Assembly: GCA_027459625.1 (NCBI GenBank)
Contig: DAIDHP010000014.1
Location: 1-64,000, forward strand
Direction of reading: 5' to 3'
Origin: Chthonomonadales bacterium
Lineage (GTDB): Bacteria; Armatimonadota; Chthonomonadetes; Chthonomonadales; CAJBBX01
DNA length: 64,000 bases
How positions within the stretch are numbered: position 1 is the stretch's first letter; each line of letters begins with the position of its first letter. The notes below the pieces were generated by a model. It had not been told where the DNA came from and did not search any database. It was given only the letters and a program-made list of their open reading frames with translations. The position numbers and the translations under genes are program-made. Positions 46,079 to 61,857 of the stretch are shown in pieces.

Positions 46079-48028
46079 TTATCCCCGTTTGTTGATGGCG
46101 GCTATCAAATGCAGAAAACCGATTTGGCAGAACGCGGTGGATTCAGGATACATATCCTGCTTCATTTTGTCCTCGACACCGTCTCCGTTCGTATCATCCG
46201 TCCAATTATACACCCCGCCCATCTCGTTAAACAGCCGGACTTGGAAGGGGTTGTCACCGCAGAGATAGCGCACCATCGACATGGCACGGTCGCAATAACG
46301 CTTCTCTCCGGTCAACGCGTACAAATCCGCCAAGGCATGAATCCAATGCCCGGTCTGATAGTAAAAAAACTGCGCATTGCCACCCTTGCTCCAGATATAG
46401 GTCATCCTTCCCGGGGCTATGAGCAACCCGAAGTTCACGCAGGGTGCCTTCCTCTCCTTGGGATCGGCTTTGGCGGTTATCCATGCGTCCGCAACCTGCA
46501 TCGCGGAAGTGCGCCAGTGGTCGGCGTCAGGCTCTTGAGGCAGTAAGGCGGTCCCTTCCGCTAACGCCGCAACCCCCATGGCATCCACATTGGGATAGAT
46601 GGACCATTGATGGTTGGCGGATTCCAAATCCACCAGGGCGTTAAGGGAGTTGACGCAAAGCCGGCGCAGGGGTTGAGTGTCGTTGGGGGCGAGCATCACC
46701 GGCATGTCCGGATGCACGCTGCAAGCCGCGAGCATTCCCAGTAAAAGATACGCGTGCTCTCCGGCATCCCGCCAGTAGACATGCCCTTGGGGCGTGGTTT
46801 TGACGTATCCGCCTTTTTTCCCGTCATGCAGACAGAAGCGCAGGGAGAGTGCGATGCTGTCTCGAAGATTGGCGGCTATTGGACCTTCGGGATCCGCCTT
46901 CAACATCTCCCCCAGTCCCCACGTCGCCCGACCATTAAGCACCCCTCCGGCGGCGTAATCGTGAAAGGAGGGGTTGTAAAACCAGCCCTTGCGCTCTGTC
47001 ATATAATCACCGTTGTTGAACATGCCATAGTGAAACGCTCCCGCCGTGTATATCTCCCGCATGCCCTGCCAATCCGGAAGGCAGAAGTTGGACGCCGTTT
47101 TATGCTGCATCGCCATCAAGTTGCGCGCAGCCTCGCGGCAGAACCCGAGGGTGTTCTCCATGGGATCGATTGGCGCGTGGATTCGCATAACATGCATGAT
47201 GAGGACATCTGCGAAATCGTTGGAGAAGGCATAAGGACGATAGTTATCCGGATTGTTGTTCTTCGGGTTACCGTCAAGAGGGTTATCGTTGCTGGAGTTG
47301 AACCACGTGCTCCACACCGACTGCCAAAATGTTTGCGCTACGCGATGGTTGAGCGGTTGATCCCAATCCCTGTCCCGGTATCGGAACTCGTAGAGCGAGA
47401 GGTTGTTTTTGAACCACTCCAAATCAGCCTTATTCGCCAGATCGAAGGTCTGTCGCTCCGCATTCGCCTTCATCGCCCCCTCGCTATGCAGATAGAGGTT
47501 TATCAGGGAGCGCATCTCGTTCCATTGCGCGCATTTTTCGTCCGTCCTGCCTTCCCGATCTATAAGCCCGGTGGTGAATCCGGTCGGGAGTACGGTTCCG
47601 GATGAATCGTAGAGGATGATCGTCGCCTCCGTTTGGCGGTGATCGGGTCCGGTTACGTCGAAATCGTTGTCGGTTGTGGCGTCGATGAAGAGGGTTCCCA
47701 GACGCAGCTTCGGTGCGCCGAGGAAGTCATTGGGGTATCGGCATCGGAATTTACCCGAGTTCACCGCGACCTGTTTTATAACAGACACGCCGGCACCCGT
47801 GGTGACGCGAACTCTCACTGAGGATGCGTTTGTACTCGTCACCACTCCATCGATATCCACATGTCCCTTGCGAATATCCGCGAGGACGGAACGCCTTAGT
47901 GTGGGCACTAGGGATACGGGCGATTGGGAAGGGGTTTGAGCGGCGTGGCAAACCTCCATCATAGGGAGCGCCAGGGCTGCGCTTATGAAGGAGAGCGCTT
48001 GACGGCGGGTGAATGTCGCTTTGTTCAT
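46079..48028 (-). CDS. Tat-exported alpha/alpha-barrel-like protein, possible glycosidase
   Basis: 649 residues from ATG 48028 (AAGGA upstream). TFTRRQALSFISAALALPMM is a twin-arginine signal. An N-terminal beta domain (about 50-170) precedes a mostly helical region, which suggests an (alpha/alpha)6 barrel. Near the end YLCGDNPFQVRLFNEMGG recalls GH9 enzymes, and DDTNGDGVED is an EF-hand-like calcium loop. The family is uncertain. It heads an operon with the unknown 548-residue protein. Confidence 0.6.
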   Translation of the reverse strand: MNKATFTRRQALSFISAALALPMMEVCHAAQTPSQSPVSLVPTLRRSVLADIRKGHVDIDGVVTSTNASSVRVRVTTGAGVSVIKQVAVNSGKFRCRYPNDFLGAPKLRLGTLFIDATTDNDFDVTGPDHRQTEATIILYDSSGTVLPTGFTTGLIDREGRTDEKCAQWNEMRSLINLYLHSEGAMKANAERQTFDLANKADLEWFKNNLSLYEFRYRDRDWDQPLNHRVAQTFWQSVWSTWFNSSNDNPLDGNPKNNNPDNYRPYAFSNDFADVLIMHVMRIHAPIDPMENTLGFCREAARNLMAMQHKTASNFCLPDWQGMREIYTAGAFHYGMFNNGDYMTERKGWFYNPSFHDYAAGGVLNGRATWGLGEMLKADPEGPIAANLRDSIALSLRFCLHDGKKGGYVKTTPQGHVYWRDAGEHAYLLLGMLAACSVHPDMPVMLAPNDTQPLRRLCVNSLNALVDLESANHQWSIYPNVDAMGVAALAEGTALLPQEPDADHWRTSAMQVADAWITAKADPKERKAPCVNFGLLIAPGRMTYIWSKGGNAQFFYYQTGHWIHALADLYALTGEKRYCDRAMSMVRYLCGDNPFQVRLFNEMGGVYNWTDDTNGDGVEDKMKQDMYPESTAFCQIGFLHLIAAINKRG

Positions 48029-48087
48029 GATGGTGTTCCTTGCATTACATTCATGTGAAGCGGGGTTGCCTAATATTACCATACGGG

Positions 48088-48148
48088 GGCGCCTATCTCA
48101 CGATAAGGCGGAATTATCTCTCGCGGAGGCGGATTTACCTCACGCAGA
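48088..48148. repeat. Three tandem ~21-bp units
   Basis: GGCGCCTATCTCACGATAA, GGCGGAATTATCTCTCGCG... and GGCGGATTTACCTCACGCA... repeat at 48088, 48107 and 48128 with 19-21 bp period, followed by a CGCGGAGACGC tail. Confidence 0.75.
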
Positions 48149-48189
48149 GACGCGGAGACGCTGTTTTTCTTACAATGTACGGAGGATTC

Positions 48190-48243
48190 GTAGGGGCGAC
48201 CCTTGTGGTCGCCCGAAATGTTGCGAGTTCCGGAAATCTTGTG
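48190..48243. repeat. 54-bp direct repeat, left flank of the array
   Basis: Starts GTAGGGGCGACC; contains the palindrome GGGCGACC-CTTGT-GGTCGCCC. It differs at two positions from the copy at 48662-48715, and the pair brackets the 85-bp array. Confidence 0.9.
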
Positions 48244-48278
48244 AGCGGTACGGTTTCGCCTTAACGCCCAATCCCCGC

Positions 48279-48620
48279 GCAGGTTGGCGGTCCCCCCGCG
48301 CGGTGAACCATGCGGTATGCGCTCGCGAACGCCATGAATGGCGTGACGCGTGGAATTCGATCCCGCAGGTTGGCGTTCCCCGTGCGATAAATCACGTGGT
48401 ACGCGCTCGCGAACGCCATGAATGGTGTGATGCGTGGAATTCGATCCCGCAGGTTGGCGGTCCCCGCGCGATAAATCACGCGGTACGCGCTCGCAAACGC
48501 CATGAATGGCGTGGCACGGGGGTATTCGATCCTGCAGGTTGGCGTTCCCCCCCGCGCGGTGAACCACGCGGTACATGCTCGCGAACGCCATAAATGGCGT
48601 AACACGTGGAATTCGATCCC
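48279..48620. repeat. Four tandem ~85-bp units with internal palindromes
   Basis: Units 48279-48364, 48365-48448, 48449-48533 and 48534-48620 (84-87 bp each) start GCAGGTTGGCG and end near ATTCGATCC. Each carries ACGCCAT-GA-ATGGCGT or a close variant (the last has ATAA). There are no unique spacers, so this is not a CRISPR array. Confidence 0.92.
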
Positions 48621-48661
48621 GAACGGGTACATGGTTTCATCGAATGTGTCGCGATGATTTT

Positions 48662-48715
48662 GTAGGGGCGACCCTTGTGGTCGCCCGAAATGTTGCGGGT
48701 TCCGGAAATCATGTG
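48662..48715. repeat. 54-bp direct repeat, right flank of the array
   Basis: Identical to 48190-48243 except two bases. Together with the array it makes a composite island of about 530 bp. Confidence 0.9.
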
Positions 48716-48809
48716 ATCGATAGCGAATCCACCATCACGCCTAACCCCTGCGCGACATATTATATGACCGGTGAGATGTAAATCCGTATTTCAAAACTCC
48801 CGCCGAATA

Positions 48810-49883
48810 CTAATTACATCTCGTATATTGGCATACATGCACGGCGCAAATATTCGTTAAAAATGCGCAAGGTTCCTTTGTTGCAATGTCAAACACCTCT
48901 TCATCCGTTTTTTCTAAGATTACCCGGCAAATTCGTATAGGATGTTGGTCAATTCCACCATACGCCAAATCGCTTGTTTTTACGGAACGTGCAAATAACC
49001 ATTGCTTTTCCGGATCTTTTGGAAGAATTGATTCCCTGCAATGCTTGGAAATATCGATAATAATACCGTGAAGATTCTGGAAGATATCCCTCGCAGTATA
49101 ACGAAGGACCTTTAAGCCCATGCTCTCCATCCATTTATCTCGCTTCATATCATATCTTCGACTATCCTGAGACCCATGCGCTATATCCCCATCCACTTCG
49201 ATAACAAGTCCGGCGTCATGGGAATAGACATCCGCGATAAAAGGACCAATCGGGTGCTGTCTTCTGAATTTAACACCGCATTTATGTCCTAAAAGCGCTT
49301 GCCAAAGCAATCTCTCAGGTGGTGTCATCGAGTTACGTAATTCCCTTGCGTATGCGAAATGTTCAACTGGAACGCCGCTCCATCCACCATTAGGAGAGAG
49401 TTGTTGAACCCTCCTGCGCACCAAAACTCGATGGTATTCCGTGAGCCAAAGGACGCTTTCGCTCTCTTCGGTTTGTATTCCAATCATTATCCCCCGGTAA
49501 TGTCTTCGAACCACCTTTTGTATCGGAAATACGTTCCCGTCATAAGCCACGATCAATTCGTCGGGATGGAGAGATTCAATGGGTTTCCATGCAAACCAAT
49601 CACCCTCCTTAAATCCCGCCTCTTCCTCACCCCCCACAAATCCCTCCGCCGCACCATCGCCCCCTTTAAATTCCCCCGCATGCGGGGGGAGACTGGGTTT
49701 TTCGTTGTCGTGGAGGGTATTCTCCCCCGCGTGCGGGGGAGTTGGAGGGGGTAAATCCGGCGATGTATCTTGGGTGTTTGGAGGGGGTAGCACGCAAAGG
49801 ACGAGAACTCCCGCCCTTACGCAACATGAATGGATCTTTTTAGATCGAAGAAAGTTGAAGTTCGCCTTTTTCATTCGCACCAT
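48810..49883 (-). CDS. Orphan intein-like Hint protein with inserted DUF559 endonuclease domain, probably inactive for splicing
   Basis: 357 residues. Cys21 starts an intein-like block (CVRAGVLVLC). A Pro/Gly-rich linker (33-95) follows. WLTEYHRVL (146-154) has the T-x-x-H of intein block B. Residues 175-280 are a DUF559 (Vsr-like PD-(D/E)XK) domain: MTPPERLLWQALLG, FRRQHPIGPFIADVY, GLVIEVDGD with candidate Asp218, Glu229 and Asp231. After it, EVFDIATKEPCAFLTNICAVHVC (328-351, quoted in two halves) is intein block F/G, but the terminal Asn is replaced: His349 is followed by Val350. There is no recognisable extein on either side (18 and 7 residues). It is most likely a decayed intein whose host gene was lost or moved. 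Confidence 0.7.
   Translation of the reverse strand: MVRMKKANFNFLRSKKIHSCCVRAGVLVLCVLPPPNTQDTSPDLPPPTPPHAGENTLHDNEKPSLPPHAGEFKGGDGAAEGFVGGEEEAGFKEGDWFAWKPIESLHPDELIVAYDGNVFPIQKVVRRHYRGIMIGIQTEESESVLWLTEYHRVLVRRRVQQLSPNGGWSGVPVEHFAYARELRNSMTPPERLLWQALLGHKCGVKFRRQHPIGPFIADVYSHDAGLVIEVDGDIAHGSQDSRRYDMKRDKWMESMGLKVLRYTARDIFQNLHGIIIDISKHCRESILPKDPEKQWLFARSVKTSDLAYGGIDQHPIRICRVILEKTDEEVFDIATKEPCAFLTNICAVHVCQYTRCN
49672..49741. repeat. Pair of GC-rich palindromes inside the Hint linker
   Basis: TCCCCCGCATGCGGGGGA (49672-49689) and CTCCCCCGCGTGCGGGGGAG (49722-49741), each nearly perfectly self-complementary. They encode the Pro-rich linker (PPHAGE occurs twice) of the minus-strand ORF, so this is repeat DNA carried in frame inside a gene. 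Confidence 0.85.
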
Positions 49884-49925: not shown

Positions 49926-50117
49926 CTACCCGAAATCCATCTCCTCGTTTCGCGCCCGGGGTTTTCCAGAGCCCTCGTTGCGTTGCACCATGTATCCCAA
50001 TGGGAGTTCGGGTCGTTTGCCCTCCTCCAGAATCTCCTTGATGGTGAGAAGCTGCATTCGTGGGATGCGCCGTGTGCCGAAACCCTCCACGAATCCGAGA
50101 CCCTCCGCCTCATGCAA
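49926..50117 (-). pseudogene. C-terminal fragment of a DNA methylase-like protein
   Basis: About 63 codons whose translation GFGTRRIPRMQLLTIKEILEEG continuing GKRPELPLGYM resembles the C-terminal end of site-specific DNA methyltransferases (Q-(L/I)-LT-x-(E/K)-(E/I/L)-L-x-GKRP-(E/D)-(L/I)-P). An in-frame TGA lies 9 bp before the TTG that opens the frame, and nothing of a catalytic domain remains. It sits immediately upstream of the Hint/DUF559 ORF on the same strand, suggesting that both are leftovers of one modification locus. Resemblance is short, so this remains tentative. Confidence 0.45.
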
Positions 50118-61600: not shown

Positions 61601-61857
61601 ACCCCTTCGAGGTTGGGGGATGGCTTTCAAGCCATTCGTGAGAGCGTACCTCGGGATTTATCCCGAAGGTTCGATACGTGCACTTTCCTTACTTCTTCAC
61701 TTCGGAACCCTGTAGCTTCCTTCCCCTCGGAATCCCGCCGTCTTCCGCACTTCGGAATCCTGATGCCTCCCGCACCACGGGATAACCCACACCGGCTCCC
61801 GCACTACGGGATAAATCCCGAAGTGCTCGCTAACGAATGCCATGAATGGCATCGGGG
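61600..61857. repeat. Two inverted copies of a hairpin-rich unit around five short tandem units
   Basis: Left copy (61600-61670, minus orientation) and right copy (61807-61857, plus orientation) share GGGATAAATCCCGA, GCTC and a GAATG-CC...GGC-AT hairpin (AATGGCTTGAAAGCCATC on the left; AATGCCATGAATGGCATC on the right). Between them five units of 25-29 bp with cores CTTCGGAA or CACGGGAT repeat (about 61693-61815). The right copy also resembles the 85-bp units at 48279-48620 (GATAAATC, GCTCGC, CCATGAATGGC). Confidence 0.8.

Follow-up and report, generated by a model that had tools for sequence, protein, structure and literature searches.

GTAG-tagged REP elements, probably mobilised by a RAYT on another contig, flank a distinct tandem array in a Chthonomonadales genome

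The repeat island in the stretch of DNA analysed here (64,000 nucleotides, the window) carries two direct repeats that are GTAG-tagged REPs of a genome-wide family. The family appears to be mobilised by a RAYT gene on contig 5 of the same genome (G000 in the coordinates below); a second REP copy would have arisen near the first, and the four-unit array between them would have been duplicated separately. The probability of this account as a whole is put at about 0.85. This ties the island to miniature mobile DNA of a known class and points to the gene that probably moves it.

The anatomy of the island, direct repeats around four tandem units, was confirmed, and the coordinates of an earlier note on this DNA were right to within a few bases. 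The direct repeats are 64 nt each and lie 472 bp apart. Within positions 47900-48900 the best ungapped 64-column self-match was 61/64, a value that tests the REP pair and the array jointly, and 200 dinucleotide shuffles gave at most 38. At the array, TRF returned a period of 84 with 84% matches and a score of 459 (span 48278-48621), and the later units were 69-88% identical to the first in ungapped comparison. The 21-bp tandems that the earlier note had described are present and above shuffles (0 of 500 as good), but they are weak (2.4 copies at 76% identity). Its four palindromic 85-bp units stand as tandem units; "palindromic" was an overstatement, because each unit carries a single short hairpin, ACGCCATGAATGGCGT or a variant of it, and no long palindrome. 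Folding of the entire 85-bp unit was not above shuffles (z -1.2 to -1.6); the fold of the REP hairpin was more stable than shuffles (z about -2.5). The CACGCAGAGACGCGGAGACGC word at the left edge is also found next to a REP elsewhere in the genome (G000:C10:91986), and short matches in G024 and G057 overlap it. An Rfam search of the island returned no RNA family up to E 1, and no sigma-70-type promoter match was found in it. Terminator-like matches were seen only within the left gene, near chance level, and a role of the island as promoter or terminator was rejected.

Table 1. Coordinates of the repeat features and of the genes to their right (window positions).
Feature	Position	Strand	Remarks
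Weak 21-bp tandem	48094..48144	.	Left edge; runs into the CACGCAGAGACGCGGAGACGC word at 48141-48161
REP copy 1 with tail	48187..48250	+	GTAG foot 48190-48193, hairpin 48194-48214, tail to ~48250
Tandem array, four 84-88-bp units	48278..48633	.	Units begin at ~48278, 48364, 48448 and 48533
REP copy 2 with tail	48659..48722	+	GTAG at 48662; 92% identity with copy 1
ORF with DUF559 domain	48810..49883	-	Right of the island; context, outside the repeat
DNA methyltransferase C-terminus remnant	49932..50114	-	83.6% identity to the G001:C51 gene; context

Each REP is built of GTAG, the hairpin GGGCGACC-CTTGT-GGTCGCCC and a tail of about 40 nt. Pattern and BLAST searches of the contigs found at least 43 exact copies of the core in the window's genome (control 0), six in a genome of the same genus (G001), one in another member of the family (G004) and none in 16 further relatives; the copy numbers are lower bounds because REP clusters are enriched at contig ends. 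End-proximal clusters occur on contigs 2, 21, 26, 32, 37, 40, 41, 47, 61, 64 and 70. The foot is GTAG in 44 of the 51 elements collected from G000 and G001. With GTAG at the 5' foot of the hairpin and many dispersed copies, the element is a GTAG REP; the earlier suggestion of a REP-like palindromic element on both sides is borne out by these REPs and by the RAYT gene that REPs flank elsewhere in the genome. The base preceding the foot is C or T in 47 of the 51, and the upstream bias (A/T, A/T, pyrimidine) points to a possible target or cleavage preference. Many copies in the genome form outward-facing inverted pairs, two at a spacing of 85-90 bp and five at 143-147 bp, a REPIN-like arrangement (85-147 bp overall). 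At another locus (L055, G000:C83:1942-2609) four near-identical REPs follow each other in direct orientation, spaced by 175, 296 and 175 bp. A full-text literature search with GTAGGGGCGA returned papers on unrelated subjects, as judged by title.

Two Y1_Tnp genes were detected in the genome by profile search, on contigs 5 and 25. The contig 5 gene (G000:C5:44279-44773) encodes a RAYT (TnpAREP, Y1_Tnp). Before it lie two REPs (43826 and 43993) and a degenerate third (44138), after it two more (44776 and 44919), and the TAG of a REP's GTAG foot serves as its stop codon. A cognate RAYT flanked by the same REP, the arrangement of a REPtron, is found at G000:C5:43826-44940. The protein scored above the cut-off for PF01797 and below the cut-off of 80 for NCBIfam REP_Tyr_transpos (E 1.2e-19, 70.7 bits), and its sole match in a PDB search was TnpAREP 4ER8. 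Its sequence has the HUH motif (HLH), Y-x-x-x-N and the W, Q, E, H and R residues that have been tied to reading of GTAG (PMC6006769). No REP of this family lies near the contig 25 gene, which is disfavoured as the mover solely on that ground. The copy number, the inverted pairs and the REP-flanked contig 5 RAYT with its REP-supplied stop codon make mobilisation by a RAYT the best explanation of the REPs, and, judged from sequence, the contig 5 gene is the likely mover of the family. At the island, none of the neighbouring ORFs examined was recognised as a transposase, and a self-contained transposon there was rejected; the search for a matching transposase that the earlier note had proposed was answered by a candidate on contig 5 but not at the island.

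The two window REPs are singlets in the same orientation. Two close inverted REPs, as in a REPIN, are found at other sites of the genome but not here, and the best match to a hidden inverted partner within the island was 12/25, under the shuffle mean. The REPs of the window are therefore probably immobile at present, being direct singlets with no detectable inverted partner. PMC3733652 reports this arrangement, singlets in direct orientation, as under-represented.

The closest kin of the window REPs is a single REP with tail at G001:C51 (GTAG at about 2812), beside the same methyltransferase gene and about 140 bases from its end (2956). The gene is intact there, and neither array nor second REP is present. 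Comparison of the two genomes suggests that the single-REP state is ancestral. GTAG REPs would have been mobilised genome-wide by the contig 5 RAYT, a TnpAREP of the HUH/Y1 single-strand transposase type, and one REP with its tail would have landed next to the methyltransferase gene, probably in a common ancestor of the two species sampled from the genus. The second copy would then have arisen close by, in the same orientation, through local copying or duplication.

It is possible, though not the favoured reading, that simple segmental duplication without a transposase gave rise to the second REP, with the array a part of the same slippage process. In tail comparisons the two window tails were each other's closest relatives (mutual best match, 32), followed by the G001:C51 tail (26) and all others at 16.5 or less, so that these three tails form a subgroup apart from the other REPs; other tandem REP repeats are also known in this genome, such as the four on C83. 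Against a plain duplication, the shared block begins within 3-4 bases of GTAG in both window copies as well as in the G001:C51 copy, as the ends of an element predict, and upstream of this point the two window copies agree at only 13 of 40 positions.

The array units are, as judged by their sequence, distinct from the REP. The best plus-strand match of a unit to the REP was 13/25, and descent of the unit from this REP family by decay was rejected. Expansion of a REP-like element, which the earlier note had offered as the origin of the array, is unproven and does not explain it, since the 85-bp units differ from the REP in sequence. Elsewhere, a core of about 50 bp is all that is shared with the units. 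In a search of 291 genomes of the phylum this core was found only at C61:82-129, in repeats on G001:C179 and C98, and as two short matches in distant genomes; it occurs mainly in this genus. The CGAATGCCATGAATGGCAT word, which resembles the hairpin of the 85-bp unit, is common to window positions 61834-61852 and G000:C31:26196-26214. The four units would be a separate sequence multiplied by ordinary tandem duplication, most likely via slippage or recombination.

The array lies between two REPs and begins about where the homology of the REP tail fades, as might be expected of a compound REP-array-REP element whose parts move or multiply together, its tandem growth being driven by RAYT nicks in the REPs on either side. 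This is unlikely, since no other REP-array-REP copy was found in the genome, the full array was found nowhere else in the 291 genomes of the phylum, and the array-like cores at C61 and G001:C179 have no REP bracket in the stretches read. It is quite doubtful, too, that the REPs serve as amplification brackets, RAYT nicking at both driving local tandem amplification of unrelated DNA between them. An assembly artefact is highly improbable. REP clusters do break the assembly, 11 of 22 being no more than 1 kb from a contig end (p 2e-9), but this segment has unique flanks and is far from the ends of its 84.5-kb contig, and its repeats are not identical: divergence is 12-31% among the array units (ungapped) and 8% between the two REPs.

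The genes around the island fit the accessory hot spot that had been proposed, as those adjoining it differ in the same-genus genome. The DUF559 ORF sits between the methyltransferase remnant and the window REPs. On the other side of the island the gene differs from that in G001, and the left-hand window protein had no match in that genome. Pfam did not confirm the exported glycosidase named there by the earlier note, the left protein matching no family, nor its decayed intein on the right, where a DUF559 ORF downstream of an amputated methyltransferase C-terminus was found instead.

A RAYT match was more frequent in relatives with REP matches than in those without (6/8 versus 15/53, Fisher p 0.016), in a small test with groups drawn post hoc and relatives treated as independent, uncorrected for phylogeny. 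The RAYT genes of relatives often carry REP variants, and several loci (L099 of G006, L194, L217 and L136) have an inverted REP pair within the RAYT reading frame, between the HUH and Y motifs. REP variants track RAYT only partly. G015 and G033 have related REPs without a RAYT match; the G006 variant has a single occurrence in G006, within the RAYT, and nine in G015; and that of G060/G008 is present in both of these and a single time in G040. The closest RAYT relative, in the same-genus genome (G001:C115:4176-4660), is split between two reading frames, has a TAG in frame and seems to be broken. Reference genomes of many phyla contain the exact 25-base REP word, in at least 120 stretches; by record title, the phyla among the matches listed include Pseudomonadota, Chloroflexota, Acidobacteriota, Bacteroidota, Bacillota, Planctomycetota and Armatimonadota. 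The word is also present in five viral contigs. A near match occurs at 40 or more places on a Vescimonas fastidiosa plasmid, on which the RAYT query had no match at E 1e-5. With so wide a reach of the exact word, it can be tested whether one REP-RAYT pair has spread between distant bacteria.

The elements resemble the GTAG-tagged REPs described by Di Nocera et al. (2013, PMC3733652) in having GTAG at the foot of a short hairpin, in forming dimers and clusters and in their association with RAYTs. As stated in the text of that paper, such REPs often supply stop codons through the TAG of the foot, as is seen here in the contig 5 RAYT. The core of the present REP was not found in its main text and may be listed among the families of its Figure 1. 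REPINs are inverted REP pairs, singlets being read as their remnants (Bertels and Rainey 2011, PMC3116915); the inverted pairs elsewhere in this genome are alike, whereas the window pair, direct and 472 bp apart, is not a REPIN. The contig 5 protein agrees with TnpAREP subclass 2.4 (RAYT group 4; Quentin et al. 2018, PMC6006769) in its HUH and Y motifs and its W, Q, E, H and R residues, an assignment made from such features; the GTAG-reading residues alone do not fix the subclass because they are partly common to subclasses 2.2, 2.5 and 2.7. In-frame REPs inside RAYT genes were already reported for subclass 2.4 in the same study and are no novelty; they are seen here in relatives, whereas the RAYT of the window's own genome has no internal REP. 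The island is an ordinary patch of mobile bacterial REP hairpins adjoining an unrelated four-copy tandem repeat, of a kind already known.
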